Assembly: GCA_030684645.1 (NCBI GenBank)
Contig: JAUXUF010000322.1
Location: 1-43,557 of the forward strand
DNA from: Bacteroidota bacterium
GTDB taxonomy: Bacteria > Bacteroidota > Bacteroidia > Bacteroidales > Prolixibacteraceae
DNA: 43,557 bases
Reading direction: 5' to 3'
Shown: positions 17,529-39,054 of the stretch, piece after piece
Layout: every line of letters begins with the position of its first letter
How positions within the stretch are numbered: the stretch's first letter is position 1
Made by a program: the position numbers and the translations under genes
Notes under the pieces: generated by a model
What the model saw: only the letters and a program-made list of their open reading frames with translations
The model's database searches: none
What the model was told of the DNA's origin: nothing

Positions 17529-17582
17529 AATACGTCAGTTAAGTTCTGATCAAGAATTAATATCGCATTAATAATATGGTGT

Positions 17583-19763: not shown

Positions 19764-22679
19764 ATGCACAAAAAACTCATCTATCTCTTCTTATTTATTT
19801 TAGCGCTGTCAACAGTTGTTTCAGCTGAAATCATCAACATAGGAGTTCCTTATATACGAAACTATTCGAAAAAGGAATACAAGGGAGGTACTCAAAACTG
19901 GTCGATTTCACAAGATCAGCGTGGTTTTATGTATTTTGCCAACAACGATGGACTTCTTATTTTTGATGGTGTTACCTGGCAAAGGCATCGAATGTTAAAT
20001 TCTTCGATTGTTCGGTCGGTTTTCATCGCAAAAGATGCACAAATTTACGTTGGGGCATATAACGAACTGGGCAAAATGACTGTCAACAAGACCGGTAAAT
20101 TGGAATTTCGCTCTTTAAAGAAATACATACCTTCGGAGTATCAAAATTTCGATGACATTTGGAACATAACTTCATACCAGAATTATATAGTATATCAGTC
20201 CTACAATTATGCTTTTTTATTCAGTAATGATTCTGTTGTTTCAGTGTTAAAAGCTCCATCAAGGTTTCAAAATTCTTATCAGATCAACGGGCGATTGTAT
20301 TTTAATGATCTGGGAAAAGGTCTGCTTGAATATTCATCAAACAAACTTACAAGTTCCCCCGGTTTTGAAAGCCTTAAAGGTGAAGGAATTTGGTCAATTG
20401 TACCATTTAAAGGCAGTAATGACTTATTGGTTTGCAGCTTAAACAAAGGTATTTTTATATACAACGGAAGCGAATTGAAGACATGGGACGTTCCGGTAAA
20501 TTCCATTTTCAAAAAAAACCAGATTACCAGTGCAATCAGCATTCAGGATAACTATTTTGCCATTGGCACCATACAGGACGGGGTCTTCATTATCGATGGA
20601 TATGGAAATATCATTCAGCATTTAAACAAACAAAAAGGTCTCCAAAATAATACCGTATTAAAAGTATTTGGTGACCGAGAAGGAAACCTCTGGCTTGGAC
20701 TTGACAACGGGATTGATTACCTGAACATAAATTCGCCCATAACATTTTTACAGCAATCGGATGGTATTGGTGCAGGATATACCTCGATTATTTACAAGGG
20801 GAAACTATACCTGGGAACTAACCAGGGCCTGTTTGTGAAAGATTGGGGAAACGAAAGGCGGAACAATGAATACCGTATGATTCCTGGCACCAATGAGCAG
20901 GTTTGGTACCTGGGTGTTCATGACGACGTATTGCTCTGCGGTCACAATAACGGAACATATGTTGTTGAAGGCGAAAAAGTCAGACAAATAAGTAAAATTC
21001 CAGGTGCATGGAAATTTCACTCACTTAAGCGATTCCCAGGATATTTGCTAGGTGGAACTTACAGTGGTTTGACACTTTATAAGAAACAAAACAACAGCTG
21101 GGTTTTGATCGGCAAAATACCAGGATTTGATGAATCGTTTCGAATTTTTGAGGAAGATGAAAATGGAGATATCTGGATGAGTCATGGGTTTAAAGGGATC
21201 TATAAAATCCAGATTGGCAATAACTTGGATAGCATCCGATCATCTCGTTTTTACACCATAAAGGATGGTTTACCTACAAACTTCAACCTGAATGTATATA
21301 AGATAAAAGGGAAGATAGTGGTGACCTCAAATGCCGGAATTTATGAATACAATTCGACAACCGACCGGTTTGAACGTTCAGTTTACTTTAATCAGCTATT
21401 GAGTCCGCTAAAAGACATTTCCTATCTGAAGGAAGATAAAAACGGTAACATTTGGTATGTTGCATGGGACATGTCGAAAAACAAGGGAGGTGTCTTCCGG
21501 ATACAGGAGGATTTGACGTATAAAAATATAAGCTCACCCTTTGGATTATTGACCGGCAAATTCATCAGCGGTTTCGAATCCATCTATAATTATTCAGACG
21601 ATCATATATTCTTTGGCACTGAAGATGGATTTGCCCATTATTCTCCCCTTGCCAATTATAATCATAACCCGGAATATTCAACATACATAAACAGTGCAAC
21701 TGCAACATATCTCGACAGTATTTTCTATTACGGCAATTACACTGCAAGTCCGGGCAAGAACGACCATCCGGAGTACAATTTTCCATACAAGGAAAATTCG
21801 TTCAGGTTTTCATACACATCTCCCTTGTATGACAATCAAGGCCAGATTGAATATAGCTTTAAGCTATCAGGATACAACAATAAGTGGTCAGATTGGAGCA
21901 GCACCTCCTTCAACGAATATGCAAATCTTCCTTCAGGCGATTATATTTTCAATGTTAAGTCCCGAAATCAAATGGGCATCGAAAGTACAGAAGATAGCCT
22001 GAAGTTTGAAATTAAACCTCCCTGGTACAATTCAGTTTATGCCTATTTAGTCTATTTTATAACATTCATAGGAATATTTCTAATGACCATCTGGGCCGTA
22101 TTCATGCGGATTGAAGTATCGAAACGTAAAGAGCGGTTAAAGAACCTGAGCGCCTACCGACAAAAAGAACATGAATATATCCGGCAGGCTCTGGTTTCCG
22201 AAAAGAAAATCATCAATCTGAAGAACGAAAAACTTCGGATTGAAATGATTCACCGCGACAAGGAACTTGCCAACCAAACCATGGATTTAATTCATAAAAA
22301 TAAGTTTCTGGGAAGGATAAAAGAGGAATTGGAAAAACTAAAAAAATCGAGCTCTGATGAATCGGTGAAAGATAAAATCACCTCCCTGGTACACAAAATC
22401 GACAAAGATATTGACCACAAAAAGCAATGGGAAGTATTTGAAACTGCTTTCGACGATGTTCACGAAGACTTTTTAAGCAGGCTGAAAATACTTCATCCTA
22501 ATCTTACTCCTAAAGAATTAAAATTATGTGCCTACCTGAGAATGAATATTTCAACTAAAGAAATTGCTCCACTCATGAATATATCGATTCGTGGTGTTGA
22601 AATTTGCAGATATAGGGTACGTAAAAAACTCAATATTGATCGCGATCAGAATCTAACCAGCATGGTCATGGATTTATAA
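19764..22679 (+). CDS. Membrane-spanning propeller/Y_Y_Y/LuxR-type regulator
   Basis: A 971-residue one-component sensor-regulator. The ATG at 19764 is chosen, with AAAGGA 5 bp upstream, over the TTG at 19746. Residues 1-21 are a signal sequence. Residues about 30-650 are two-component-regulator propeller repeats (units like DREGNLWLGLDNGIDYL). A Y_Y_Y domain follows at about 660-750, one membrane helix at about 757-783 and a charged coiled coil at 790-880. A LuxR/GerE-like HTH ends it at 910-971 (LTPKELKLCAYLRMNISTKEIAPLMNIS). There is no histidine kinase or receiver domain, unlike hybrid two-component regulators of Bacteroides. It lies directly upstream of susC on the same strand and probably activates the locus when oligosaccharide binds in the periplasm. 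Confidence 0.9.
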   Translation: MHKKLIYLFLFILALSTVVSAEIINIGVPYIRNYSKKEYKGGTQNWSISQDQRGFMYFANNDGLLIFDGVTWQRHRMLNSSIVRSVFIAKDAQIYVGAYNELGKMTVNKTGKLEFRSLKKYIPSEYQNFDDIWNITSYQNYIVYQSYNYAFLFSNDSVVSVLKAPSRFQNSYQINGRLYFNDLGKGLLEYSSNKLTSSPGFESLKGEGIWSIVPFKGSNDLLVCSLNKGIFIYNGSELKTWDVPVNSIFKKNQITSAISIQDNYFAIGTIQDGVFIIDGYGNIIQHLNKQKGLQNNTVLKVFGDREGNLWLGLDNGIDYLNINSPITFLQQSDGIGAGYTSIIYKGKLYLGTNQGLFVKDWGNERRNNEYRMIPGTNEQVWYLGVHDDVLLCGHNNGTYVVEGEKVRQISKIPGAWKFHSLKRFPGYLLGGTYSGLTLYKKQNNSWVLIGKIPGFDESFRIFEEDENGDIWMSHGFKGIYKIQIGNNLDSIRSSRFYTIKDGLPTNFNLNVYKIKGKIVVTSNAGIYEYNSTTDRFERSVYFNQLLSPLKDISYLKEDKNGNIWYVAWDMSKNKGGVFRIQEDLTYKNISSPFGLLTGKFISGFESIYNYSDDHIFFGTEDGFAHYSPLANYNHNPEYSTYINSATATYLDSIFYYGNYTASPGKNDHPEYNFPYKENSFRFSYTSPLYDNQGQIEYSFKLSGYNNKWSDWSSTSFNEYANLPSGDYIFNVKSRNQMGIESTEDSLKFEIKPPWYNSVYAYLVYFITFIGIFLMTIWAVFMRIEVSKRKERLKNLSAYRQKEHEYIRQALVSEKKIINLKNEKLRIEMIHRDKELANQTMDLIHKNKFLGRIKEELEKLKKSSSDESVKDKITSLVHKIDKDIDHKKQWEVFETAFDDVHEDFLSRLKILHPNLTPKELKLCAYLRMNISTKEIAPLMNISIRGVEICRYRVRKKLNIDRDQNLTSMVMDL

Positions 22680-22782
22680 AAATTACACAGAGTTGTGTAT
22701 CTGAAAATACTTACTGTTGTATAAACAATTTTAGAATAAAATAACCCAAACTACTTTCTTACAATTAAATACATTATTACAT

Positions 22783-22827
22783 GATGTATTATTGATGTAA
22801 TGCAGAATTGCAGCAGATGTATTATTG
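22783..22827 (+). promoter_or_regulatory. Direct repeats GATGTATTATTG upstream of the susC promoter
   Basis: Two exact copies of GATGTATTATTG (22783-22794 and 22816-22827) are spaced 33 bp apart, about three helical turns. They lie 37-81 bp upstream of a -7 box. The first copy overlaps an imperfect palindrome ATTACAT-G-ATGTATT (22778-22792). They are a good candidate binding site for the adjacent LuxR-type regulator; binding is inference. Confidence 0.5.
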
Positions 22828-22863
22828 TAGTACTCTTTTGTATTTTTTTTGTACTCAATTATT

Positions 22864-22871
22864 TAACTTTG
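22864..22871 (+). promoter_or_regulatory. -7 box (TAACTTTG) of the susC operon
   Basis: TAACTTTG matches TAnnTTTG exactly. A TTTG at 22837-22840 could serve as the -33 element, with 23 bp between, slightly wide. It implies a leader of about 225 nt before susC, which contains a small ORF. The 424-bp spacer also has a short hairpin TACACA/TGTGTA at 22684-22699 just after the regulator stop codon. Confidence 0.5.
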
Positions 22872-22922
22872 CTTAACAAAAATTTAATGTTTTAATTATT
22901 TTTTCTAAAACTTTATTTATTT

Positions 22923-23012
22923 ATGAAAAAATCGATTTTAGCAATTTTAATCTTGATGAGCTCTTTTGTCGGATATGATAAAGCTTGTATCTTAACTAGC
23001 GTGAAAGTGTAA
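22923..23012 (+). CDS. Possible 29-residue signal-peptide-like small ORF in the susC leader
   Basis: ATG at 22923 opens a 29-codon frame ending in TAA at 23010. It begins MKKSILAILILMSSF, a convincing signal-peptide or single-helix start, and ends with a short tail holding one Cys. It lies in the leader between the -7 box (22864) and susC (23104). There is no clear Shine-Dalgarno, which is common in Bacteroidota. It could be a leader peptide, a small membrane protein, or the remnant of a deleted gene. Low confidence. Confidence 0.3.
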   Translation: MKKSILAILILMSSFVGYDKACILTSVKV

Positions 23013-23103
23013 GAATAAAGACAATAAAAAAAAAACGGAAGAGGTAGAACTGTTAATCCTACCCATTAAAATTGGATTAAATCAAGTCTCAAAATGTAAA
23101 ATT

Positions 23104-26100
23104 ATGAAAAAATGGTGGTTCATTCATGGTTCTGTTCCATGGGTAAATGAAAATTTCAGAAAGATGAAACTAACAGTTTTATTAGTGTGCATCTCAGCAG
23201 TGGCAGGCTTTGCCAGCGGAAGTTATGCACAGTCGGAAAAACTAAATAAAACTTCCTTGCTGCAAGATTCAGGGCAACAACTAGCTGTTTCCGGTAAAGT
23301 AACCGATAAAAACGGCGAGCCCTTGTTCGGTGTTACTGTAGCAGTAAAAGGTACAACCATCGGAACTATTACCAACGTGGAGGGAAAGTTCACTCTTTCC
23401 GTTGTGGCGGGAAGCACTTTATCATTTTCAATGATAGGTTTCCATACTCAGGAAATTATTGCAAGCGGTACTACACCAATTGATGTGATTTTGGCTGAAG
23501 AAACGATAGCAATTGATGAGGTCGTGGTTGTTGGTTATGGATCAGTTAAGAAAAGAGATCTTACCACATCGGTGGCGACTGTATCCACAAAAGATATTGC
23601 CGAAAGACCTATCATTTCTGCTGCTTCTGCCATTCAAGGTAAGGCTGCCGGTGTTACAGTAGTGCAGCCGAGTGGTGAGCCCGGAGCAGGTATGGTAGTT
23701 CGCGTTCGCGGAAATAGCTCAATTAGTGCAAGCAATGACCCATTATATGTCGTCGATGGTGTTCCGATGACCGAAATCAACTTCCTGTCGCCAAACGATA
23801 TCGAAAGCATGCAAATTTTGAAAGATGCTTCTTCTGCCGCCATTTATGGTTCGAGAGCATCCAATGGCGTGGTATTGATTACCACTAAAATGGGTTCAAA
23901 AGGGGAAGCAAAGATTTCATTCAATGCACATGCCGGTGCTACGCAGGTTGTAAAACATTTACAATCGCTGAATACTGCTCAATATAAAACATTGATGGAT
24001 GAAATTGGCGCGGTTACCTTACCTGATGGATTGACCGATCAAACCGATTGGTTTAAAGAAACTTTCAGAACTGGTGTTACACAAGATTATCAGTTGTCCA
24101 TTTCTAATGCAACCGACAAAATAAAATACTTTGTTTCAGGAGGGATGACTAACGAATCAGGTGTTATTCCTGTAGCCTACTATAAACGATATAATTTAAG
24201 AGCAAACCTGGAAAATCAGATTCGATCTTGGCTTAAATTGAATACCAATCTGGCGTATTCTGATTACACCAACAACGGAATAATATCAGGAACAGGAGCC
24301 AATCGGGCAGGTGTAATTTTATCGGTTATCAATACACCTACTTATGCACCTATTTGGAATCCTGCTATCCCAACTCAATATTACGATAATTTCTATGGTG
24401 CACAAGTGACCCATCCAGTTGAAAATATGTCACGATCGGAAAATAATAAAAGTAATAGCAATCGATTTGTAGGTAGCACAAGTGGTGAAATCACATTTTC
24501 TCCGGCATTAAAACTCAAAACATCATTATCGTTAGATCGCGTTTATTATAATTCTACCAGTTTTTTAGATCCTATCAAAACTTCCTGGGGACGAACTAAT
24601 TATGGTCAAGCTTCTGATAACAGATCATTGAGTTCAATTATGGTTTTTGATAACATTATGACTTACGATAAACGTTTAAAAAAACACAGTCTGAGTGCAA
24701 TGGGTGGAACATCATTCACTTCCTCTTCATGGAATCAAAGCTATATGTCAGCTTCACACTATAGTACTTCTGACATTCTAACTTTAAATGCTGGCAATAA
24801 AATTGAACAAGGAAGCGGAACATCTGCCTCCGATTGGGCCATTATGTCTTTTCTGGGAAGGGTAGCCTACAATTATGACAGCAAGTATCTATTGACTGTC
24901 AACTTCCGTGCTGATGGTTCTTCAAAATTAGCTCCAAGTCATAAATGGGGTTATTTCCCTTCTGCATCTGCTGCATGGAGGATTTCAGCTGAAGACTTTA
25001 TGAAAGATATAAAATTGGTTAGTGATTTAAAACTCAGAGGTGGTTGGGGACAAACGGGTAATCAATCGGGAATTGGTGATTATGCTTATTTACAACGCTA
25101 TAATATTAATCGTCTTGCCTGGTGGGATAAAAGTGGTCTCTACACCGATGCAGTTCCAGGTTTGTCTATCGCGAATATGAAAAACTCAGATTTGACCTGG
25201 GAAACAACCACTCAATCCAATATAGGGATAGATTTATCCATACTCGAAAGTCGCGTAAACCTTACCATTGATGCCTACTACAAATACACCACAAATTTAT
25301 TGATGGATGTGCCTCTGCCCTCAACTGCTCCCGTTGGAAGTTTGACACGTAACGAAGGAGAAATGAGTAACAAGGGGATTGAAATCGCCTTAAATACTAA
25401 AAACTATACCGGAAAATTCAAATGGGAAACAGACTTCAATATCTCTTTTAACAGAAATAGGGTTGAAAAACTGACCCTTCAACAGAAATATTATTTAGCA
25501 GAATCATCAACAGGTGAAAAAGTTGTACTCTTGACACCTGGTCAACCATTGGGCGTTTTCTTTGGCTATGTTTCCAAAGGAGTAGATCCTGAAACTGGAA
25601 ATTTGATATTTGAAACTACGAATGCAGATGGTACTCCATCTTTGAGCGAGCGTAAAATTATAGGCGATCCTAATCCTAAATTTACTTATGGATTAACAAA
25701 TAATTTTTCTTATCAAGGATTTACTCTGAATATATTCCTTCAAGGTTCTTATGGAAATGACATTTACAATATTTCGCGCATGGAAACCGAAGGAATGTAT
25801 GATGCCAAAAATCAATCGGTGGCAGTACTCGACAGGTGGGAGCGTCCGGGCATGGTCACCTATATGCCTAGAGCAGTGGCTACAAAAGAAAATTTGCTGA
25901 CATCTACTCGCTTCGTGGAGGATGGTAGTTATTTACGGTTAAAAACACTCACTCTGTCTTACAATTTTGCAAGTAATTGGTTGAGAAAAATGAACATAAC
26001 TCGTTTACAACCCTATTTAACCGCACAAAACCTATTGACTTTGACCAAATACAAAGGATTTGATCCTGAAGTAAGTCAATATGGAGGTAGTGCCACTGTT

Positions 26101-26169
26101 CAAGGAATTGATTATGGCACTTACCCACAATCGAAGAGTTATGTAATTGGCTTTAATGTTGAATTTTAA
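23104..26169 (+). CDS. SusC-like TonB-dependent outer-membrane transporter
   Basis: A 1021-residue TonB-dependent receptor that imports oligosaccharides with SusD as lid. A long N-terminus with signal sequence (hydrophobic 22-43, ending SYAQ) leads to a carboxypeptidase-regulatory-like domain (61-135, VSGKVTDKNGEPLFGV). The conserved segment DEVVVVGYG (138-146), plug (about 150-265) and 22-strand barrel follow, ending in the outer-membrane signature FNVEF. An internal Met21 could be the true start. No STN domain is present, so an ECF/anti-sigma control circuit is unlikely; this fits regulation by the neighbouring propeller-LuxR protein. The SusD gene starts 13 bp downstream. Confidence 0.96.
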   Translation: MKKWWFIHGSVPWVNENFRKMKLTVLLVCISAVAGFASGSYAQSEKLNKTSLLQDSGQQLAVSGKVTDKNGEPLFGVTVAVKGTTIGTITNVEGKFTLSVVAGSTLSFSMIGFHTQEIIASGTTPIDVILAEETIAIDEVVVVGYGSVKKRDLTTSVATVSTKDIAERPIISAASAIQGKAAGVTVVQPSGEPGAGMVVRVRGNSSISASNDPLYVVDGVPMTEINFLSPNDIESMQILKDASSAAIYGSRASNGVVLITTKMGSKGEAKISFNAHAGATQVVKHLQSLNTAQYKTLMDEIGAVTLPDGLTDQTDWFKETFRTGVTQDYQLSISNATDKIKYFVSGGMTNESGVIPVAYYKRYNLRANLENQIRSWLKLNTNLAYSDYTNNGIISGTGANRAGVILSVINTPTYAPIWNPAIPTQYYDNFYGAQVTHPVENMSRSENNKSNSNRFVGSTSGEITFSPALKLKTSLSLDRVYYNSTSFLDPIKTSWGRTNYGQASDNRSLSSIMVFDNIMTYDKRLKKHSLSAMGGTSFTSSSWNQSYMSASHYSTSDILTLNAGNKIEQGSGTSASDWAIMSFLGRVAYNYDSKYLLTVNFRADGSSKLAPSHKWGYFPSASAAWRISAEDFMKDIKLVSDLKLRGGWGQTGNQSGIGDYAYLQRYNINRLAWWDKSGLYTDAVPGLSIANMKNSDLTWETTTQSNIGIDLSILESRVNLTIDAYYKYTTNLLMDVPLPSTAPVGSLTRNEGEMSNKGIEIALNTKNYTGKFKWETDFNISFNRNRVEKLTLQQKYYLAESSTGEKVVLLTPGQPLGVFFGYVSKGVDPETGNLIFETTNADGTPSLSERKIIGDPNPKFTYGLTNNFSYQGFTLNIFLQGSYGNDIYNISRMETEGMYDAKNQSVAVLDRWERPGMVTYMPRAVATKENLLTSTRFVEDGSYLRLKTLTLSYNFASNWLRKMNITRLQPYLTAQNLLTLTKYKGFDPEVSQYGGSATVQGIDYGTYPQSKSYVIGFNVEF

Positions 26170-26182
26170 CACAATTACAAAA

Positions 26183-27676
26183 ATGAAAAAAATTATAAAA
26201 CTGGGCTGTTATATAGCTATTTCCCTTTCGTTAAGCGCTTGTTCACTCAATCTTAATCCAATTTCAGATTTTAGTGAAGTGAATGTTGGTGGAAACAACA
26301 GCGATGGCGGAACTGTAAAGTTCAAGACCAAAGCTGAGATGAAAACACAATACGATAATATGTATAATCAATTATCGACAAACAAAGTTGAATCATGGGT
26401 GCTTGATTACTTGATCTATTCAGATACACATGCCGACAATTCCTATCGTGGTGCAACCGATCTTGAATTAACACAGTTAGAGCAACAAAGGCAAGATGGA
26501 AATAACAAAAATATTAATCGCGATTGGGATAATTATTTTGGAATAGTAGGAGCCGCAAACAGTGTGATATGCAATATTGATGCCGTACCCGATGTTTCCC
26601 TAACACAGGCAGAACGTAAACAATGGAAAGCGGAAGCCTTAGTCTTACGATCCATGATTTATTTCGACCTGGTACGCCTTTGGGGTGATGTGCCGTTAAT
26701 ATTATTGGAACCACCAGCAATAACATCGGCCAATATTGTGGAAGTATATCCATTGTATTATCCTAAGAAAAATACTACTGCAGAAATTTATGCTCAAATT
26801 ATCAAGGATTTGAATATTGCATTAGAACCAGGTGGGGCACCTGCAATTGATAACACAAATAAATTCAAATTTTCAAAAACGGTGGTAAATGCTTTGTTGG
26901 CAAAAATATATGCTGAGAAGCCTGTTAGAGATTATGCCAAAGTAGTTCAGTATTGCACTGAAGTCGAAAAAGATGTTTCACTCGTAGCTAATTATGGCGA
27001 TTTGTTTGATATGAATGCTGCCAATACAGATGTAAAAAACAGAAATACTTCAGAATCCATTTTTGAAATTACCTTTTCCGGAGGTGGAAACTGGGTAACA
27101 TGGATGTGTGGTATAGATCTCTCAAGTGCTACCAGCAAATACGATTGGGCAAAGTGGTTTACACCTTCGCGTGATTTGACAGCAGCATTTGATAAAGCCG
27201 GCGATACAGACCGGAAAAAACAAACCATCATCAATGCCGACGTAATCTGGAGTAATCATTATCCTTCAAAGGGTTATCCATTTATGTATAAATATCGTTC
27301 TAAATTTCACAGTGTTATCAAAATCCGGTTGGCAGATATATTGTTGCTGAAAGCGGAAGCTTATATTGGACAAGGGAATACTGCTGACGCCACTACATTG
27401 GTTAATCGCATTCGTACACGGGCAAAACTTACCAGTTTGACTACAGTTACAGCCGATGATGTTTTAAACGAAAGAAGGTTAGAATTAGCTTTTGAAGGAC
27501 AACGCTGGTTCGATTTAGTTCGCACCGGAAAAGTATTTACTGTTATGAATACTTTGAACAGCAGAGATGTTGGTCGTTTGCCAATGAATGTGGTGACAGA
27601 AGAAAAAACATTGATGCCAATACCACAACCACAAATTGACAAAAACCCATCGATGCTTCAAAACCCTGGTTATTGA
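26183..27676 (+). CDS. SusD-like surface glycan-binding lipoprotein
   Basis: A 497-residue RagB/SusD-family lipoprotein with acceptor Cys20 (LSLSAC). The ATG at 26183 is preferred over the longer frame from 26147, which overlaps susC and hides the signal peptide. Family marks are the TPR-like helices with WKAEALVLRSMIYFDLVRLWGDVPLI near residue 155 and the C-terminal segment IRLADILLLKAEAYIGQGN...LNERRLELAFEGQRWFDLVRTG. It forms the lid on SusC and captures the glycan at the cell surface. It starts 13 bp after susC and is followed after 38 bp by the next lipoprotein gene. Confidence 0.96.
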   Translation: MKKIIKLGCYIAISLSLSACSLNLNPISDFSEVNVGGNNSDGGTVKFKTKAEMKTQYDNMYNQLSTNKVESWVLDYLIYSDTHADNSYRGATDLELTQLEQQRQDGNNKNINRDWDNYFGIVGAANSVICNIDAVPDVSLTQAERKQWKAEALVLRSMIYFDLVRLWGDVPLILLEPPAITSANIVEVYPLYYPKKNTTAEIYAQIIKDLNIALEPGGAPAIDNTNKFKFSKTVVNALLAKIYAEKPVRDYAKVVQYCTEVEKDVSLVANYGDLFDMNAANTDVKNRNTSESIFEITFSGGGNWVTWMCGIDLSSATSKYDWAKWFTPSRDLTAAFDKAGDTDRKKQTIINADVIWSNHYPSKGYPFMYKYRSKFHSVIKIRLADILLLKAEAYIGQGNTADATTLVNRIRTRAKLTSLTTVTADDVLNERRLELAFEGQRWFDLVRTGKVFTVMNTLNSRDVGRLPMNVVTEEKTLMPIPQPQIDKNPSMLQNPGY

Positions 27677-27714
27677 TTCATTCAATAATTATTAATCGAC
27701 AAAAATAGGAAGTC

Positions 27715-29118: not shown

Positions 29119-29129
29119 ATAGACTTTGC

Positions 29130-29150
29130 TCGGGGACAGTTTGTCTCCGA
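29130..29150 (+). repeat. Intercistronic hairpin between SGBP and GH30 genes
   Basis: The arms TCGGGGACA and TGTCTCCGA pair over 9 positions with one G-U around a 3-nt loop, followed by ACAAAAATTTT. It lies in the 57-bp gap and could act as an attenuator or an mRNA-end stabiliser that gives susCDE higher levels than the enzyme gene. Confidence 0.5.
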
Positions 29151-29175
29151 ACAAAAATTTTAACAAATCAAATCA

Positions 29176-30654: not shown

Positions 30655-30748
30655 TACAAATAATTGAAATATTTGTCGTTTAGCATAACCAATTTGTTTT
30701 TTGATATAAATGAATCTTGAATAAGTTTAAACAATTAAAACTATTATT

Positions 30749-32791
30749 ATGAAAAGAATCTTTACTTTCGTGATTGCTCTTTTGAGTATGTTTGCCGTTA
30801 TGCAGTCAGCATCGGCACTGACATACAGCGTTACTGTTCCTGCCGGAACCAACGCGTGCTTTATTGCTGGTAATATGAATGGCTGGAGTCAAAAACCTAT
30901 GACAAAAGTAGATGCTACGCATTACACAATTGACTATCCCACTTCAGTAGCCACTGATGAATACAAGTATTGCAGTGGTCCGGACTGGAAATATGAAGAA
31001 TGCGATGCTGCCGGAGTTAAATTAGCTGCAAACCGCAAATATGCAGCTGCTGATATTGTTGCAAAATGGTTGGTAGTATATGATACTGCCAATGAAAAAG
31101 ATGTCGCAATTGAAGTATTGACTCCATCGACAACCATTGAATGCTACATTGTTGGAAATTTTAATGGTTGGGCAAGTCCTGCTGCTGCCTTTAAAATGAC
31201 TAAAGGTGCAACTACCGCTGATGGTATCGTTTTCTCTAAAACCATTCACACCCTGGATGTTACCACATTGGAATACAAGATCACTGCTGGTCCTGCGTGG
31301 GATTATGAACAAAAAACCCCTGCTGCTAATTTTAAATTCGCGACAGATGGTGGAACTGTTATTGTAACTGCCTTCAAAGCAATTTTCGATCCTGCAAAAA
31401 CAGGCGATATCCACATTACGGCTACCGTTCCTGCCGGCACAACAGTCTGCTGGATTCAAGGAAGTTACTTAGGATGGGATATGAAAAAAGCAGTAAAGGG
31501 AACTAAAAATACTGATGGTACTTTTTCGTTTACTGTTCCTATGGTAATGTCTATTGAATATAGATTGTACAACTTACCAGATTGGAGTCATCCAGAAGCT
31601 GATGATGCAGGTGTAGAACGTGCAAATCGTTTAGCCGCATTTCCGGCTGATGCAAATATTAGCATAACAGTAGTAAAATGGAAAACACCAGTATTGGGTA
31701 TGATTTACAACGTTACTGTTCCTGCCGGAACCAACGCATGTTTCATTGCTGGCAATATGAATGGCTGGAGTCAAAAACCTATGACAAAAGTAGATGCTAC
31801 GCATTACACAATTAACTATCCGAATGCAGTAGCCACTGATGAATACAAGTATTGCAGTGGTCCGGACTGGAAATATGAAGAATGTGATGCTGCCGGAGTT
31901 AAGTTAGCTGCAAACCGTAAATATGAAGCTGCTGATGTTGTTGCAAAATGGTTGGTAGTGTATGATACTGCTAATGAAAAAGATGTCGCAATTGAAGTAT
32001 TGACTCCATCGACAACAATTGAATGCTACATTATTGGAAATTTTAATGGTTGGGCCAGTCCTGCCGCTGCCTTTAAAATGACTAAAGGTGCAACTACCGT
32101 TGATGGAATCATTTGGACTAAAACCATTCACACCTTGGATATTACCACATTGGAATTCAAGTTCGCTGCTGGTCCTGCTTGGGATTATGAACAAAAAAAC
32201 CCATCTGCTAATTTCAAGTATGCTACAAGCGGCGGAACTGTTATTGTAACTGAATTCAAAGCAATTTTCGATCCTGCAAAAACAGGCGATATCCATATCA
32301 CGGCTACCGTTCCTGCCGGCACAACAGACTGCTGGATTCAAGGAAGTTACTTAGGATGGGATATGGCAAAAGCTGTTAAGGGAACTAAAAATGCTGATGG
32401 AACTTTCTCATTTACTGTTCCAATGGTAATGTCTATTGAATATAGATTGTACAACAAAGCAGATTGGGGTTATCCAGAAGCAGATGCTTTAGGTGTAGAA
32501 CGTGCAAATCGTCTGGCCGCATTTCCTGCTGATGCAAATATCAGCATAACAGTAGTAAAATGGAAACTTCCAACAGCAATTTCTATCATAAAAGCGGCAT
32601 CTAACTTAATTTACACCAATAATTCAAGTATCGTTGTTGAGGGCGTTACTTCACGGGTGGATGTATTTGATTTAAGCGGTCGTATCCTTCAGTCCAACAA
32701 ATTGGTTGGTACTTTTACTTCAAAATCGCTAAACGCTGGTATATACATCGTTCGTGTTGATGGTGCTACCAAAAAAGTTGCTGTAAAATAA
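30749..32791 (+). CDS. T9SS-secreted protein with duplicated CBM-like module triplet
   Basis: A 680-residue secreted protein without catalytic motifs. It has a signal peptide 1-23 (MQSASA). Module A (about 25-115, with ACFIAGNMNGWSQKPM) and module B (130-228, CYIVGNFNGWASPAAAF) are followed by module C (232-315, CWIQGSYLGWDMKKAV). The triplet A-B-C is then repeated almost exactly from 319 to about 608. Each module has the G-x-x-x-G-W lead and YK/YR...W ending of CBM20/CBM48-like starch- or glucan-binding sandwiches. Residues about 612-680 are a T9SS type A sorting domain (VDVFDLSGRILQ...GIYIVRVDG), so it is surface-attached or released by T9SS rather than lipidated. It follows the GH30 gene by 94 bp and has its own strong terminator. 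Confidence 0.87.
   Translation: MKRIFTFVIALLSMFAVMQSASALTYSVTVPAGTNACFIAGNMNGWSQKPMTKVDATHYTIDYPTSVATDEYKYCSGPDWKYEECDAAGVKLAANRKYAAADIVAKWLVVYDTANEKDVAIEVLTPSTTIECYIVGNFNGWASPAAAFKMTKGATTADGIVFSKTIHTLDVTTLEYKITAGPAWDYEQKTPAANFKFATDGGTVIVTAFKAIFDPAKTGDIHITATVPAGTTVCWIQGSYLGWDMKKAVKGTKNTDGTFSFTVPMVMSIEYRLYNLPDWSHPEADDAGVERANRLAAFPADANISITVVKWKTPVLGMIYNVTVPAGTNACFIAGNMNGWSQKPMTKVDATHYTINYPNAVATDEYKYCSGPDWKYEECDAAGVKLAANRKYEAADVVAKWLVVYDTANEKDVAIEVLTPSTTIECYIIGNFNGWASPAAAFKMTKGATTVDGIIWTKTIHTLDITTLEFKFAAGPAWDYEQKNPSANFKYATSGGTVIVTEFKAIFDPAKTGDIHITATVPAGTTDCWIQGSYLGWDMAKAVKGTKNADGTFSFTVPMVMSIEYRLYNKADWGYPEADALGVERANRLAAFPADANISITVVKWKLPTAISIIKAASNLIYTNNSSIVVEGVTSRVDVFDLSGRILQSNKLVGTFTSKSLNAGIYIVRVDGATKKVAVK
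30824..32587 (+). repeat. In-frame tandem duplication, period 882 bp
   Basis: The block 30824-31705 is repeated at 31706-32587 with a constant offset of exactly 882 bp (294 codons). For example, GTTACTGTTCCTGCCGGAAC occurs at 30830 and 31712, and AGCATAACAGTAGTAAAATGG at 31661 and 32543. Most of the block is near-identical at base level, pointing to a recent duplication. Confidence 0.93.
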
Positions 32792-32806
32792 ACAGTTAAC
32801 ATTGAC

Positions 32807-32843
32807 AAAAAAGGGCTGTGCGATTGTCGCACAGCCCTTTTTT
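32807..32843 (+). terminator. Strong Rho-independent terminator after the CBM-like gene
   Basis: The perfect stem AAAAAAGGGCTGTGCGA / TCGCACAGCCCTTTTTT with a 3-nt loop (TTG) lies 15 bp after the stop codon. It separates the sus part of the locus from the downstream GH30 remnant and glp genes. Confidence 0.95.
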
Positions 32844-32869
32844 ATCATAAATTACCCCGAAGATTATTC

Positions 32870-33217
32870 ATAATTTTAATTGAATGGAACCTTGCCTCCG
32901 ATCCAAACTATTTTCCACACACCAGTGGTGGATGTAGTTCATGTATGGGAGCGCTAACGATCGGAAATTCGGTAAACCGCAATGTATCGTATTACATCAT
33001 TGCACATGCTTCTAAGTTTGTAAAGACAGGTTCAAAACGAATTGCATCAAATACGGTCAGTAATTTGCCTAATGTTGCGTTCATTACTCCTGAAGGAAAA
33101 AAGGTTCTGATTGTGCTCAACGAAAGCAATACGGTACAGACATTCAATATTCAATTCAATGAAAGAATTGTGATCACTGATCTTGCAGGAGGTGCAGTGG
33201 GAACTTATGTTTGGTAA
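32870..33217 (+). pseudogene. 5'-truncated GH30 C-terminal remnant
   Basis: An open stretch of about 115 codons beginning before any start codon. It reads IEWNLASDPNYF, then GGCSSCMGALTIGN, then YYIIAHASKFVKTGSKRI, and ends GAVGTYVW. This aligns with the last third of the intact GH30 protein at 29176 (WNFMLDEKG..., GGCTTCYGAV, FYVIGHLSKAISPGAIRI) and with GH30 C-terminal sandwiches in general, but it is clearly a different GH30. The catalytic barrel (about 370 residues) is missing. It lies directly behind the terminator, so the 5' part was probably lost by deletion. Translation from ATG 32945 could give only a non-catalytic fragment. Confidence 0.85.
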
Positions 33218-33313
33218 ATAAATTATAAGTGAACTAATTAATTATATACAAACAGATATACAAAATAGCAGATAAAAGATGGTATATTGCTAACAAACCT
33301 AATTCATAGAACC

Positions 33314-34795
33314 ATGTATATTTTATCCTTAGATCAGGGGACTACCAGCAGCCGTTCAATATTATTTGATAAATCAGGAGGTATCGTTGCTCTTGCGCAA
33401 AAAGAATTTACTCAAATCTTTCCAACTCCCGGATGGGTAGAGCATAATCCCATGGAGATATGGGAAACTCAGCTGGAAACAGCCAGGGAAGTGATTGCGC
33501 TGGCAAAAATTTCAGCCAGTGATATTGCAGCTATCGGTATCACCAATCAGCGGGAAACAACCGTGATTTGGGACCGGAATACAGGCGAACCCATATACAA
33601 CGCCATTGTTTGGCAGGACAGAAGAACTGCAGCTTTTTGTGATGAACTGAAAGAAAATGGCTTGGAGAAAGTTATACAGCAAAAAACCGGCTTACTCGCA
33701 GATTCGTATTTTAGCGGTACTAAAATCAGATGGATCCTTGATCATGTTGCTGGCGCAAGAGAAAAAGCAATAAATGGCGAATTGTGTTTTGGAACCATTG
33801 ATACCTGGTTGTTGTGGAAATTAACCGAAGGTAAGGTTCATGCAACAGATGTCAGCAACGCCAGTCGCACCATGCTTTGTAACATTGAAACCTGCCAATG
33901 GGACGGAGAACTCCAAGAAATATTAGATATACCGGGGAATATTCTGCCTCAAATACGCAGCAGTAGTGAAGTTTATGGCACGACCACTTTATTGGATGGT
34001 AAATCGACCATACCTATTGCAGGTATTGCAGGTGATCAGCAGGCTGCTCTTTTCGGACAATTATGCACGCAACCTGGCATGGTAAAAAATACTTATGGAA
34101 CCGGTTGTTTTATGCTAATGAATACCGGTGAGAAAATGATTGTTTCCAGCAATAATTTATTGACCACTGTAGCCTGGAAAATTAACGGCATCACTCAGTA
34201 TGCCCTGGAAGGAAGTGTATTTATTGCCGGAGCCGTGGTTCAATGGTTAAGAGACGGATTAGGCATCATTAAAACTTCGGCTGATGTGGAAGCCCTGGCT
34301 ATGCAGGTCGATACCAATGACGGGGTGTATGTGGTACCTGCCTTTGCAGGACTTGGTGCACCTTACTGGAATCAGCATGCCAAAGGTGCTGTCACCGGAT
34401 TAACCAGAGGCAGTACATCGGCTCATATCGCGAGAGCAGCTATTGAAAGCATTGCCTATCAAACCATGGACGTATTAAAAGCGATGGAAGCTGATAGCGG
34501 GATCAGTATTAAAGAATTACGGGTTGATGGTGGCGCCACTAAAAATGATTTGCTGATGCAGTTTCAGAGCGATATGCTCAATACTAAAGTGGTACGGCCA
34601 ACAGTGACTGAAACCACTGCTCTGGGAGCTGCTTATCTGGCCGGATTAGCCACGGGATATTGGAAAAGCATCGAAGAATTGCAGGAACAATGGCAAATTC
34701 AAACCATATTTTCATCCTCCATCAGTAATGAAAAGCGAGATGAATTAACCCTGGGATGGAAAAAAGCTGTAAATGCAACCTTGTCGGTTATATAA
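33314..34795 (+). CDS. glpK: Glycerol kinase
   Basis: A 493-residue FGGY kinase that makes sn-glycerol 3-phosphate from glycerol and ATP. The ATG at 33314 is chosen because [15 protein letters not shown] is the canonical N-terminus; the frame upstream to 33287 adds unconserved residues. It has the ATP-binding DQGTTSSR, substrate-side NQRETT and [19 protein letters not shown], and the FGGY signature 2 region ([20 protein letters not shown]). First of a tight operon glpK-glpD-glpF-GDPD/GH16 (gaps 15, 26 and 8 bp). It starts 96 bp after the GH30 remnant. No clear promoter was seen in that gap. Confidence 0.97.
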
Positions 34796-34810
34796 AGAAA
34801 GACCAATAAA

Positions 34811-36367
34811 ATGAACAGAGAAGAACAGCTGTATATACTCAGCCATGAAAAAGAGTATGATATGATCATCATTGGTGGTGGGGCCACAGGCCTGGGATGT
34901 GCGGTTGATGCGGCTAACAGAGGTTTTAGAACACTTCTGCTCGAAAAATCTGATTTTGCAAAAGGAACTTCAAGCCGCTCTACCAAATTAGTACATGGCG
35001 GGGTCAGGTATCTGGCACAAGGCAACATTCGTCTGGTAAAAGATGGTTTACTTGAAAGAGGAAGACTTTTACAGAATGCCCCGCATATTTGTCACACCAT
35101 GTCTTTTGTCATGCCGTCTTACAAATGGTGGCATAAATGGTTCTACGGCTTTGGTTTATGGGTTTATGAATTCCTTTCCGGAGAATTGAGCCTGGGTAAA
35201 ACAAAAATGCTGACAAAAAAACAAACCTTACAACATCTGCCTGATTTGAGTGTCGATCACATTAATGGAGGAGTCTTGTATTTCGATGGGCAGTTTGATG
35301 ATAGCAGGCTGGCGGTATGCCTTGCGCAAACAGCCATTGAACAAGGGGCCACAGTGATTAATTATTGTGGAGTAACCGGGTTCCTGAAAAATGGATCGAC
35401 CATTTCAGGCGTAATAGCAAAAGATGAACTCAGTGGAAAAGAAATTGAAATTAAAGCAAAAGTAGTCATCAATGCAACCGGAGTTTTTGCTGATGAATTA
35501 TTGCAGATGGCTGAAGGTCATTCTGAGCAAACCATTGCCCCGTCGCAGGGAATACATTTAGTGGTCGATCGAAGCATATTTAGGGGTGATGCAGGGATGA
35601 TGCTTCCAAAAACAGATGATGGCAGGGTTTTATACTTCATCCCTTGGAAAGATAAAGTCATTCTGGGGACAACTGATACTCCTGTTGAGCATATTTCGAT
35701 TGAACCAAAACCACTAAAAGAAGAGGTTGATTTTGTGATCAGTCATTTTAACCGGTATGCTTCCTCAAAAATTAATTTCGAAGATGTAAAAAGTGTCTTT
35801 GTAGGTCTCAGGCCATTGGCAAAAGTGAATGGTGTAAAGAAAACAAAAGTAATGCCTCGCGATCACGTGATCAAAGTATTGCCTTCTGGATTAGTGCACG
35901 TTACAGGTGGAAAATGGACATCATACCGAAGTATGGCTAAACATACAATCAACAAGGCGATACAAAATTCAGAATTGGAATTTATGCCTTGTACCACAAG
36001 ACATTTAAAAATTCATGGATGGACCGAGGATAAAAATGATTCTCATTTATCGGTATATGGTACTGATGCCTCGGCAATCACACAAATGATGGTGGAAAAT
36101 GTTTCTTTATGTGAGAAAATACATGCCTCATATCCACATACAAAGGCTGAAATAATATGGATTATTGAAAATGAAATGGTTGAAACTCTTGAAGATATTT
36201 TAGCCAGAAGATTACGGTTGTTATTTCAGGATGCAAAAGCTGCAATGGAAGCTGCGCCCCTGGTGGCTGAGATACTTGCAGCTCAATCCGGCCATACCAA
36301 ACAATGGGAAAAAGAACAAGTAGAAACTTTTAATAATCTGGCTAAAGACTATTTACTTCATTCATAG
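34811..36367 (+). CDS. glpD: FAD-dependent glycerol-3-phosphate dehydrogenase
   Basis: A 518-residue membrane-associated flavoprotein that oxidises glycerol 3-phosphate to dihydroxyacetone phosphate and passes electrons to quinone. The N-terminal dinucleotide fold is IIIGGGATGLGCAVDAANRG, followed by the family signature TSSRSTKLVHGGVRYL. The middle holds GMMLPKTDDGRVLYFIPW and the C-terminal cap (about 390-518) the typical helical GlpD_C domain. It follows glpK after 15 bp. Together with GlpK it directs glycerol released outside into glycolysis. Confidence 0.97.
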   Translation: MNREEQLYILSHEKEYDMIIIGGGATGLGCAVDAANRGFRTLLLEKSDFAKGTSSRSTKLVHGGVRYLAQGNIRLVKDGLLERGRLLQNAPHICHTMSFVMPSYKWWHKWFYGFGLWVYEFLSGELSLGKTKMLTKKQTLQHLPDLSVDHINGGVLYFDGQFDDSRLAVCLAQTAIEQGATVINYCGVTGFLKNGSTISGVIAKDELSGKEIEIKAKVVINATGVFADELLQMAEGHSEQTIAPSQGIHLVVDRSIFRGDAGMMLPKTDDGRVLYFIPWKDKVILGTTDTPVEHISIEPKPLKEEVDFVISHFNRYASSKINFEDVKSVFVGLRPLAKVNGVKKTKVMPRDHVIKVLPSGLVHVTGGKWTSYRSMAKHTINKAIQNSELEFMPCTTRHLKIHGWTEDKNDSHLSVYGTDASAITQMMVENVSLCEKIHASYPHTKAEIIWIIENEMVETLEDILARRLRLLFQDAKAAMEAAPLVAEILAAQSGHTKQWEKEQVETFNNLAKDYLLHS

Positions 36368-36393
36368 ACCAATAAACCAATAAACTAAAACTA

Positions 36394-37101
36394 ATGACAC
36401 CATTTTTATCTGAATTACTTGGCACCATGTTTCTGATCGTTTTAGGAGATGGAGTTGTGGCCAATGTAGTACTCTCGAAAACGAAAGGTAACGGCAGCGG
36501 CTGGATTGTTATATCATTTGGCTGGGCTATAGCAGTATTTACAGGGGTGTATGTAGCTACCAGCGGGAGTGGCGCACATTTAAATCCAGCTGTAACATTA
36601 GCGATGGCAGCATTTAATAATTTTCCCTGGAACGAAGTCCCCACCTACCTGGCTGGTCAAATGGCAGGAGCAATGCTTGGAGCTTTAATCGTTTGGTTTA
36701 GTTATCGCCAGCATTTTGACGAAACAACAGATCCTGATTTGCAGTTGGCCACATTTTGCACCGCACCTGCCATCCGGAATTTTAAATACAATTTTCTCTC
36801 AGAACTGATAGGCACGTTTATTCTTGTTTTTGGTATTTTATTCATGACAAAACCTACCAACTCGATTGGTACACTCGATGCATTACCCGTTGGATTACTT
36901 GTTTTAGGCATTGGTTTATCGCTTGGCGGCACTACCGGTTACGCTATAAATCCTGCCAGAGATTTAGGCCCACGGATAATTCATGCCCTTTTGCCAATGA
37001 AAAACAAGGGTAAAAGTGATTGGAACTACAGCTGGATTCCCGTTTTTGGCCCAATTGCAGGTGGATTACTTGCCGCCTTTTTTTTTACACTTTTAACTTA
37101 G
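36394..37101 (+). CDS. glpF: Glycerol facilitator (aquaglyceroporin)
   Basis: A 235-residue MIP-family channel of the inner membrane with six membrane helices and both NPA loops: HLNPAVTLAMA and AINPARDLGPR. The Asp after the second NPA (NPARD) is typical of glycerol channels rather than water-only aquaporins. It lies between glpD and the GDPD-GH16 gene (gaps 26 and 8 bp), giving the operon uptake, phosphorylation and oxidation of glycerol. Confidence 0.97.
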   Translation: MTPFLSELLGTMFLIVLGDGVVANVVLSKTKGNGSGWIVISFGWAIAVFTGVYVATSGSGAHLNPAVTLAMAAFNNFPWNEVPTYLAGQMAGAMLGALIVWFSYRQHFDETTDPDLQLATFCTAPAIRNFKYNFLSELIGTFILVFGILFMTKPTNSIGTLDALPVGLLVLGIGLSLGGTTGYAINPARDLGPRIIHALLPMKNKGKSDWNYSWIPVFGPIAGGLLAAFFFTLLT

Positions 37102-37109
37102 TAAAACCC

Positions 37110-38651
37110 ATGAGAATAGTTAATATCGTTTTAGTTGCTGTTTGCCTTAGTGCATGTATTTCCGTTGTAAATGGAGCTGAAAAAAATATGGCATTCGCTG
37201 ATGACCCGGTTGTTTCCCATCGTGGAGCATGGAAAAAAAATGCTCTTCCGGAGAATTCCATCGCATCGCTGAAACATGCCATCGAAATCCAATGCGCCGG
37301 TTCCGAATTTGATGTCCGGATGACTGCCGATGATTCACTCATCATCAACCATGATCCCAATTACAACAAGCTGCCCATTGAAAAGACTAACTATGCCGAC
37401 CTGATCGCTTTCAAGCTTTCCAATGAAGAGAAACTGCCCACGTTCAGGGAATATCTGCTTGCCGGAAAAGAAAACAATACAACTACCCGATTGGTATGTG
37501 AAATAAAACCTTCTGAAATCAGTAAAGAGCGTGGAATAATCATTGCATCAAAAGTATTGCAGCTGGTTAAGGAGCTTAACATTCAGCAAAGGTTGGTGTA
37601 CATCAGTTTTGACTATGACATTCTGAAGAAATTAATTGAGTTGGAACCGACTGTCACCACCCAATATTTGGGAAGTGATAAATCTCCTGAACAATTAAAA
37701 GCGGATGGCATCAGTGGAGCCGATTATCATTTTTCAGCCTTCAAAGCTCATCCCGAATGGATTGAAAGTGCTAAGAAAAATCACATTGCCTTGAATGCGT
37801 GGACGGTAAACGATGTGGCCGATATGGACTGGCTTTTGGCCAACAACTTTGATTTTATCACCACCAATGAGCCGGAATTGTTATTTGAACGAATGAAGTT
37901 ATCGCCGGTTTACAAGGGGATGAAACTGTTTTGGAACGATGAGTTCAACTATAAAGGTTTGCCCGACAGCAGCAAATGGAGCTACAATGTAGGAGGCAAT
38001 GGCTGGGGAAACAATGAAGCTCAGTACTATACTGAAAAGGATACTTTAAATGCACAGGCCGGAAACGGCACTTTGAAAATTATTGCACGAAAACAAACCA
38101 AAGGAAATAAGAAATATACCTCAGCAAGGCTAGTGACTAGCAACAAGGCTGAATTCAAATATGGGAAAATCGAAGTCAGGGCAAAATTGCCCCGTGGGTT
38201 AGGCACCTGGCCGGCAATCTGGATGCTGGGCAAAAACATGCATGAAGTAGGTTGGCCAGCTTGTGGCGAGATAGATATTATGGAGCATGTCGGCTATCAG
38301 AACGACAGCATATTTGGAACTGTTCATACAAAGGCTTATAACCATACCATAGGTACTCAAAAAGTTAAAAGCATATTCATTTTAAATCCCTACGATCAGT
38401 TTCATGTTTATTCCATTGACTGGGCCCCTGAACAAATTGACTTCAGTATGGATGGTATAGTTTATAACCACATCGTAAACGAGCATTTATCTACCAAAGA
38501 ATGGCCTTTAGATCAGCCTTTTTTCCTGATTTTGAACCTGGCCATAGGTGGCGGCTGGGGAGGTAAAATGGGTATTGACGACTCTATCTTTCCGGCAGTT
38601 TTTGAAGTTGACTATGTACGGGTTTTTAAGAGTAAAGATAATATCAAATGA
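37110..38651 (+). CDS. Fused glycerophosphodiester phosphodiesterase-GH16 beta-glucanase lipoprotein
   Basis: A 513-residue two-domain enzyme with a lipobox LSAC (Cys16). Residues about 32-262 are a GDPD barrel with catalytic and metal residues His37-Arg38 (SHRGAW), Glu48-Asn49 (PENS), Glu66, Asp68 (EFDVR), His81 (NHD) and Glu131/Lys133 (CEIKP). Residues about 270-510 are a GH16 jelly roll with the catalytic signature GEIDIMEHVG, giving nucleophile Glu387, Asp389 and acid/base Glu392. Both active sites look complete. The ATG at 37110 follows the glpF stop by 8 bp; the longer frame from 37020 overlaps glpF. It ends in ATGA, shared with the GH3 remnant. It would release glycerol phosphate or a related alcohol and cut beta-1,3(4)-glucan at the same place; the joint substrate is inference. 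Confidence 0.93.
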   Translation: MRIVNIVLVAVCLSACISVVNGAEKNMAFADDPVVSHRGAWKKNALPENSIASLKHAIEIQCAGSEFDVRMTADDSLIINHDPNYNKLPIEKTNYADLIAFKLSNEEKLPTFREYLLAGKENNTTTRLVCEIKPSEISKERGIIIASKVLQLVKELNIQQRLVYISFDYDILKKLIELEPTVTTQYLGSDKSPEQLKADGISGADYHFSAFKAHPEWIESAKKNHIALNAWTVNDVADMDWLLANNFDFITTNEPELLFERMKLSPVYKGMKLFWNDEFNYKGLPDSSKWSYNVGGNGWGNNEAQYYTEKDTLNAQAGNGTLKIIARKQTKGNKKYTSARLVTSNKAEFKYGKIEVRAKLPRGLGTWPAIWMLGKNMHEVGWPACGEIDIMEHVGYQNDSIFGTVHTKAYNHTIGTQKVKSIFILNPYDQFHVYSIDWAPEQIDFSMDGIVYNHIVNEHLSTKEWPLDQPFFLILNLAIGGGWGGKMGIDDSIFPAVFEVDYVRVFKSKDNIK

Positions 38652-39054
38652 AAAGAATATCTATTCCGGCCATATACCTGCTTCTGTTTTTCCTTAATCC
38701 TTTGTCAAACGCAGTGGCTCAGCAAAAAACAATTGACCAGAAAGTCAATGCCTTACTGCAAATCATGACACTGGATGAAAAAATTGGCCAGCTGAATCAA
38801 TTGCCCGCGACCCGCGCTGGGGAAGAGTGATGGAAGGCGCTGGAGAAGATCCTTACCTGGGATCATTGATTGCCACGGCCAGAGTGAAAGGGTTGCAGGG
38901 AAATAAACTCGGTTTATTTGATGATCCTTACAAATATTGTAATCCCGAACGGGAACAAAAAGAATTGAATAACCCCGAACATCCGAAAGCAGCAAGAGAA
39001 ATTGCAGCAAAAAGTTTAAGTATGGAAACTGAAGTTGTAAATAGTCCGGAATAG
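38648..39054 (+). pseudogene. GH3 beta-glucosidase remnant with several internal deletions
   Basis: The start is intact: signal peptide and GH3 N-terminus (IDQKVNALLQIMTLDEKIGQ). After residue 52 the frame shifts, and the DNA continues in another frame as DPRWGRVMEGAGEDPYLGS, a GH3 signature normally about 90 residues further on. After VKGLQG it jumps to KLGLFDDPYKYCNPEREQKEL, normally about 200 residues later and beyond the catalytic Asp. A last jump follows KAAREIAAKSL. At least three deletions and a frameshift thus leave about 400 bp of a gene of some 2.2 kb. It overlaps the GDPD-GH16 stop codon by 4 bp (ATGA), so the full gene was the last cistron of the operon. Confidence 0.88.

Follow-up and report, generated by a model that had tools for sequence, protein, structure and literature searches.

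We analysed a stretch of 43,557 nucleotides from a bacterium of the family Prolixibacteraceae (Bacteroidota; contig JAUXUF010000322.1 of assembly GCA_030684645.1, genome G000 in our set), hereafter the window, and in it the genes at positions 19764 to 39054. A glycerol operon in this region, glpK-glpD-glpF, continues into a lipoprotein gene that fuses a glycerophosphodiester phosphodiesterase domain (GDPD) to a family 16 glycoside hydrolase (GH16), and we regard it as a good candidate for the use of a glycerol-phosphorylated beta-glucan. Meanwhile, the beta-1,6-glucan cassette upstream, with its SusC and SusD genes (SusCD), probably forms a unit of its own that was exchanged recently. The gene content, conserved GDPD residues, a match to a solved structure, recurrence in other genomes and the differing divergence of the two halves led us to postulate, at just short of even chances, that glpK-glpD-glpF-[GDPD-GH16]-(GH3) is what survives of a polysaccharide utilization locus (PUL) that targeted bacterial beta-(1,3)-glucans carrying glycerol phosphate, either of the NdvB type or other periplasmic or cyclic ones.

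All genes of the region lie on the forward strand, and a first-pass annotation had their list, coordinates and direction correct to the base. The operon starts with a glycerol kinase (glpK, 33314..34795; FGGY_N 1.9e-82, NF000756 at 826 bits against a cut-off of 498). This is followed by an FAD glycerol-3-phosphate dehydrogenase (glpD, 34811..36367; DAO 4.2e-57 and DAO_C) and by a glpF-type aquaglyceroporin (36394..37101; MIP 8e-47, TIGR00861 over its cut-off), which displays the NPA and NPARD motifs, the latter presumably the mark of glyceroporins. Together these three genes make up a route of glycerol catabolism, with GlpD matching the NCBIfam equivalogs below their cut-offs. The GDPD-GH16 gene comes next (37110..38651; lipobox LSAC), and the last member is a GH3 remnant (38648..39054) that consists of the N-terminus and then of separated later pieces in another frame, which match the GH3 genes of loci L009, L176 and L008. 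Intact GH3 genes occur directly 3' of GDPD-GH16 in genome G497 and 3' of an EEP-family phosphatase gene in G852. The gaps between the first four genes measure 15, 26 and 8 bp. As already noted in the first pass, the GDPD-GH16 ATG at 37110 stands 8 bp past the glpF stop, and its TGA shares the ATGA at 38648-38651 with the GH3 start. Given these short gaps and the final 4-bp overlap, the genes from glpK to the GH3 remnant read as one operon. Since this glpD is the sole match to glpD in the genome, the operon may have a further role in the use of plain glycerol.

Both domains of the fusion are well defined. Pfam assigns GDPD (PF03009) at 3.6e-23, with 83 bits over a cut-off of 23.6, to about residues 33-260 and GH16 at 1.2e-25 to about residues 270-510. 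Residues H37, R38, E66, D68, H81 and K133, which we take to form the HRG, ExD, HD and ExK motifs of GDPDs, are present in 43 of 44 alignment rows, and the other domain has the GH16 fold and the ExDxxE motif that is presumably characteristic of GH16. The fusion has been crystallised (PDB 7WW4 and 7WWC, the latter with laminaritriose). These entries were deposited as a multidomain beta-1,3(4)-glucanase and represent a GDPD-GH16 fusion, although their titles name the glucanase only; no report on the GDPD activity or the locus of this protein was found in the open-licence literature. The two-headed enzyme can probably both cut beta-1,3-glucan and strip glycerol-phosphate.

The fused gene recurs across the class. 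We searched 140 genomes of the window's family, 393 of its order, 395 of its class and 130 of the family of genome G832, the last three samples having been drawn evenly from larger groups. Fused loci other than the window's numbered at least nine in the window's family (G009, G019:C17, G042, G082, G022, G005, G089, G017 and G011; that of G089 is split over two contigs, and those of G017 and G011 are cut by a contig end), four in the order (G305, G497, G375 and G465; L005 and G305 are one contig, counted once), seven in the class (G762, G837, G832, G859, G697, G605 and G852), two further ones in the G832 family (G977 and G954) and one on other contigs (L006). The order search also returned GDPDs of 33-38% identity in long frames (e.g., G512, G491, G304 and G147), which this count leaves out. 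Mapping within 15 kb covered 21 of the 23 loci, leaving out G017 and G011, and SusC was found within that distance of the fused GDPD in 16 of the 21. Separate, neighbouring GDPD and GH16 genes occur in G909 and G012, without glp genes.

A glp operon was present in the flanks of three of the 23 fused loci: two of the seven from the class and one of the two from the G832 family, with none at the nine of the window's family, the four of the order or L006. The genes of G832 run glpD-glpK-glpF-REG-SusC-SusD-[GDPD-GH16]-EEP, where REG is a regulator. The G852 locus is arranged in the same way, except that its SusD is of a different type and that a GH3 closes the locus. Meanwhile, G977 carries, on one strand, REG-SusC-SusD-[GDPD-GH16]-EEP-sulfatase-GH3-glpD-glpK-glpF. 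Hence SusCD, GDPD-GH16, a phosphatase and glp stand in one co-directional block in each of these three genomes, which supports the idea from the first pass that the glycerol genes belong with GDPD-GH16. The family of the three genomes is probably Flavobacteriaceae, because L251 (from G626, with the same family code) is 85% identical at the DNA level to a named Flavobacteriaceae contig. A similar comparison agrees with Prolixibacteraceae as the family of the window: L066 (from G112, which bears the window's family code) matches a Prolixibacter contig at 87% identity over 8.3 kb. The regulators of G832, G852, G375 and G837 are 46-57% identical.

The glp genes at these loci appear to have more than one origin. 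A quick glpD tree (35 rows, SH-aLRT support only) placed the window with G093 (99) apart from G832, G852 and G977 (99). This separation, together with gene orders of K-D-F in the one case and D-K-F in the other, suggests that GDPD-GH16 became linked with glp genes of two or more lineages. Among the 11 genomes in which a fused gene and a glp operon were both identified, in one of which (G017) the fused gene lies on a 5.6-kb contig, glp was within 20 kb of the fused gene in three; random placement gives P ~1e-4, a value that is descriptive only, since the three share a family and a glp clade. Of 37 loci recovered by glp searches, five had SusC, three GH16, one GH30 and two GDPD-GH16 within 10 kb. 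Among intact glpKDF operons, that of G093 is most closely related to the window's (71-85% identical; 85% for GlpK). There, the gene after glpKDF is a GH30 with 70% identity to a GH30 of the G082 GDPD-GH16 PUL, and two GH16 genes lie about 7 kb upstream; no SusCD was seen at this site, which makes it a weaker case of association. A gene of G987 labelled GLPK was dropped as evidence, because its 24% match is to a different sugar kinase. We also rejected the chance insertion of a glp operon beside an unrelated gene, considering that glp shares its operon with GDPD-GH16 and that the pairing recurs. At the G093 site, a cluster of radical SAM/B12 and methyltransferase genes (L099 3330-9792) also separates the two GH16 genes from glpK, and palindromic repeats stand between glpF and GH30 (L098 19049-19404), of another kind than those described below for the window.

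The upstream half of the region starts with a regulator of 971 aa with propeller, Y_Y_Y and LuxR-HTH parts (19764..22679; Y_Y_Y 1.8e-11, GerE 6e-6). It is followed by a SusC-like TonB-dependent transporter (23104..26169; Plug 2.6e-19, CarbopepD_reg_2 2.4e-18), a SusD-like lipoprotein (26183..27676; SusD_RagB 2.5e-32, lipobox LSAC) and a protein resembling surface glycan-binding proteins (SGBPs; 27715..29118), in which DUF5016 scored 29.8 bits, just below its cut-off of 31.2, and DUF5121 24.3 bits, above its cut-off of 23; a PDB sequence search with this protein at E 0.01 returned no match. Next is a GH30 lipoprotein (29176..30654; GH30 1.2e-42, lipobox LSSC), annotated as an endo-1,6-beta-glucanase. 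It passes the family model of BT3312, NF053856, with 768 bits against a cut-off of 700, and its closest solved structure is PDB 5ngk (622 bits). The last gene of this half encodes a repeat protein resembling carbohydrate-binding modules (CBMs; 30749..32791; AMPK1_CBM 9.1e-12), with a type A tail of the type IX secretion system (T9SS; 27.9 bits over a cut-off of 23). This protein reads as two near-alike halves, and its modules are related to AMPK1_CBM/CBM53, a starch-type binding family, inside a beta-glucan cassette. A PMT-family glycosyltransferase gene (18074-19504) lies between a gene for a thiamine pyrophosphate (TPP) enzyme and the regulator, with nothing aligned to it at the same site of the sister species G019, and short palindromic repeats lie in the intergenic space upstream of it (17560-17960).

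The two halves do not form a single unit. They had been described as one co-directional block, which holds for their direction, yet a predicted intrinsic terminator (32807..32843; 17-bp stem, loop of 3, T-run at the end) separates the CBM-like gene from the glp part. The stretch 32795-32860 folds with a minimum free energy of -30.3 kcal/mol (z -8.55), which 0 of 200 shuffles equalled. A consensus terminator scan did not list this element, perhaps because of a T-run inside the stem. On this prediction, we rejected a common transcript for the sus and glp parts. Directly beyond the terminator lies a GH30 remnant, of which only the C-terminal ~110 residues persist (~32879..33217, from reading the frame; tblastn best 29% to a G082 GH30, E 1.4e-4).

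The histories of the two halves also differ. The sister species G019, of the same genus, carries the corresponding site on its contig C41, with an intact sus cassette at 91-95% protein identity to the window. Synonymous divergence (dS) to G019 is 0.35 for SusC, 0.38 for SusD, 0.32 for the SGBP and 0.41 for GH30, whereas it reaches 1.13 and 1.07 for two pieces of glpD and 1.18 for YaaA, and is saturated for the regulator. In 250-base windows, DNA identity forms a sharp mosaic, at 85-96% from ~23.0 to 32.75 kb as opposed to 68-83% in the regulator and 69-87% in glpD, YaaA and the next gene; the upstream TPP gene is at 82-88%. Near the junctions, the window segments that align to G019 are 30001-32976, 34809-35564, 35873-36373 and 39114 onward. 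The simplest reading of these comparisons is that the sus cassette was recently exchanged between lineages, and that the regulator, the glp module and the flanks are older residents. At the protein level the regulator is 75% identical to that of G019 and 61-62% identical to those of the G082 and G089 GDPD-GH16 PULs, which suggests that it once ran a PUL containing GDPD-GH16. A joint substrate for the whole window, as first proposed, is not supported by these results: the sus cassette differs in history, stands behind a terminator and persists in G019 after most of the glp module was deleted.

The same observations would also fit two ordinary neighbours without a common substrate, namely a PUL for fungal beta-1,6-glucan beside a decaying operon for the salvage of glycerol and glycerophosphodiesters. 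The terminator, the differing dS with a sharp identity step at both cassette ends, the retention of the PUL alone in G019 and the GH30 and GH3 remnants are all in line with this explanation, and the only glpD of the genome may be kept, with glpK and glpF, for plain glycerol. Nevertheless, it leaves unexplained why a GDPD fused to GH16 sits within the glpKDF operon, why the same partners meet in G832, G852 and G977, and why the GDPD-GH16 PULs in G082 and G089 have the same regulator. We consider it unlikely, although it deserves serious weight.

Some relatives of the GDPD that are not fused may point to bacterial glucans as well. Among 22 loci with a single-domain GDPD, six had a GH144 gene (PF10091, which we take to be this family) within 15 kb, with GDPDs 56-63% identical to that of the window. 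Five of these (L010, L011, L014, G626 and G591) also displayed GH3, and G817 did not. The window's own genome has a SusC-SusD-GH144-(CBM30-like)-GH144-GH3 locus (L294, G000:C192, 2541-18227) with a divergent regulator of the same kind as the window's, which is a probable beta-1,2-glucan PUL. GH144 includes beta-1,2-glucanases (PMC11842490), and phosphoglycerol can decorate beta-1,2-glucans (PMC11842490, PMC5072146). Meanwhile, the natural occurrence of a glycerol-phosphorylated beta-glucan has been reported in earlier work, cited by PMC10237404, that linked NdvB of Pseudomonas aeruginosa to it, and cyclic beta-1,3-beta-1,6-glucan is one of the four groups of osmoregulated periplasmic glucans (PMC10514313). 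The combinations GDPD with GH144 and GDPD-GH16 thus match two reported classes of phosphoglycerol glucans. The phosphoglycerol-substituted glucan named as a candidate in the first pass gains from the report on NdvB, for the glp operon and not for the window as a whole.

A phosphatase is a further recurring partner. EEP adjoins the fusion in seven of the 21 other mapped fused loci, and in G375 an EEP-GH3 fusion of 1031 residues is encoded next to GDPD-GH16 (L178 14757-17852). The EEP matches PDB 4c1r, a mannosyl-6-phosphatase, at 3.4e-44 (the third of four hits). A sulfatase that is 68-74% identical among loci lies near GDPD-GH16 or glp in G977 (L271 16074-17552), G832 (L205 7102-8571) and G042 (L053 728-2206). 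It carries CSPSR, which we take to be the formylglycine sulfatase motif, and this motif ruled out an OpgB/LtaS-type phosphoglycerol transferase. Its presence near these genes may reflect a sulfated substrate or a promiscuous phosphodiesterase.

Based on these findings, we postulate the following route. The GH16 domain of the lipoprotein would shorten the beta-1,3 chain and the GDPD would open the glycerol phosphodiester, after which a phosphatase, represented by EEP in the fuller relatives, would free glycerol. GlpF would admit the glycerol, GlpK would convert it into sn-glycerol-3-phosphate, and GlpD would produce dihydroxyacetone phosphate. A substituent derived from phosphatidylglycerol would be sn-glycerol-1-phosphate. 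GlpD is not expected to use sn-glycerol-1-phosphate; if the GDPD accepts this form, its product would have to pass via glycerol, which would explain why the operon has GlpF and GlpK, and why no GlpT exceeds the cut-off in the window's genome (14 weaker family matches; only two of 14 control genomes pass this cut-off). The original SusCD would have been replaced by the beta-1,6-glucan cassette, from SusC to the CBM-like gene, GH3 and GH30 would have decayed, and the two halves of the window would now at most cooperate.

Several observations weigh against this reading. No glp operon was found in the flanks read of 20 of the 23 other fused loci, including all nine of the window's family; flanks were short or one-sided in eight of these 20 (G022, G089, G017, G011, G465, G497, G954 and L006, the last with 10 kb). 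G832, G852 and G977 belong to one family and may reflect one event. The first pass had expected a joint substrate to fail if relatives carried the sus and glp/GDPD parts at unrelated sites, and this is so for glp at those 20 loci as far as their flanks were read, but not for the GDPD, which mostly keeps close to SusC. Even so, no labelled SusC lies within 15 kb in five of the 21 mapped fused loci (G859, G697, G605, G009 and G497), and 16 of the 22 single-domain GDPD loci lack GH144. Some fusions keep other company: fucosidase, melibiase and peptidase genes in G019:C17, two sulfatases in G042, GH10, GH43 and a SASA esterase in G009, and a purple acid phosphatase with SASA in G305. Such unlike partners suggest that the enzyme may serve other or several glycans, or unrelated phosphodiesters.

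The window itself is also incomplete. Its operon has no EEP, its GH3 is broken, and its SusCD is of other descent and stands behind the terminator, so that it falls short of the arrangement in G832, G852 and G977. In its genome, five genes exceed the Pfam EEP cut-off; the one closest to the GDPD-linked EEPs is a C-terminal fragment of only about half the protein (L280, G000:C321, 4754-5266), and the four others are elsewhere in the genome. G019 deleted glpK, the middle of glpD, glpF and GDPD-GH16, and kept the sus cassette. Finally, the phosphodiesterase GlpQ is described as acting strictly on sn-glycerol-3-phosphoryl groups (PMC7086022), a stereospecificity that would be opposite to that of phosphatidylglycerol-derived glycans.

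Two further explanations connect glucan and glycerol differently. During feeding on necromass, with no covalent link between the two, GH16 would open fungal or algal beta-glucan walls, the GDPD would salvage glycerophosphodiesters from the membrane lipids of the same cells, and the glycerol would pass to glpFKD. We find this improbable, given that six of the 22 single-domain GDPDs lie near GH144, a family acting on bacterial beta-1,2-glucans that may bear phosphoglycerol, and that the EEP resembles a sugar-phosphate phosphatase. A target in gentiobiosyl-anchored lipoteichoic acid or glycerophosphoglycolipids, cut by GH30 or GH16 and the GDPD, would suit a GH30 family that cuts beta-1,6 links and the glycerol-phosphate polymers that are teichoic acids (PMC7086022), yet it is very improbable: a laminaritriose-binding GH16, as in the 7WWC homologue, is unnecessary for a disaccharide anchor, no teichoic-acid-specific gene was noticed in the annotated loci, although no search aimed at one was made, and the lipoteichoic-acid and gentiobiose-glycolipid variants of the first pass found no specific support.

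Returning to the glycerol-phosphorylated glucan as substrate, a wider and more speculative proposal is that Bacteroidota carry a so far unrecognised PUL family for periplasmic or cyclic glucans that other bacteria make and decorate with glycerol phosphate. This family would combine GDPD-GH16, with EEP, GH3 and sometimes glp, for beta-1,3-glucans, and GDPD with GH144 for beta-1,2-glucans. The glp genes would be a sink for the glycerol, released as sn-glycerol-1-phosphate and dephosphorylated first. Most Gram-negative bacteria produce periplasmic glucans (PMC10514313). Their known substituents include phosphoglycerol, and PMC11842490 describes the substitution positions as not identified. Among the open-licence literature matches listed, we found no described consumer that uses the glycerol of periplasmic glucans, nor any description of a GDPD in a glucan PUL or of a glp operon in a PUL. 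The recurrence in three other genera suggests that such bacteria eat the glycerol-phosphate-coated sugars of other bacteria. If true, GDPD-GH16 and EEP would be a candidate enzyme set to dissect phosphoglycerol glucans, a second function would be suggested for the crystallised protein, whose titles name only a glucanase, and a trophic link of Bacteroidota with other bacteria would become testable. The locus also illustrates how a PUL may swap its SusCD-glucanase cassette while the regulator and a catabolic operon stay.

The upstream half most resembles the PUL BT3309-BT3314 of Bacteroides thetaiotaomicron, which is specific for fungal beta-1,6-glucan and shares with the window a regulator, SusCD, a BT3312-type GH30 and a DUF5016 SGBP (PMC5481569). 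The regulator of the window is of a LuxR type. In contrast to that PUL, the window has no intact GH3 (only the broken one, in the other operon), its SGBP precedes GH30, and it displays an extra CBM-like T9SS protein and the attached glp-GDPD-GH16 operon; the word "glycerol" occurs 0 times in the text of PMC5481569. The beta-1,2-glucan PULs with GH144 and GH3 resemble the downstream half in their closely related GDPD, but their backbone enzyme is GH144 instead of GH16, the GDPD is unfused, and no glp operon is seen in the flanks read. Finally, bacterial glpF-glpK-glpD systems with GlpQ employ the same enzymes and route as the window. They differ in that GlpQ is strict for sn-glycerol-3-phosphoryl groups (PMC7086022), whereas the phosphodiesterase of the window is fused to a glucanase.

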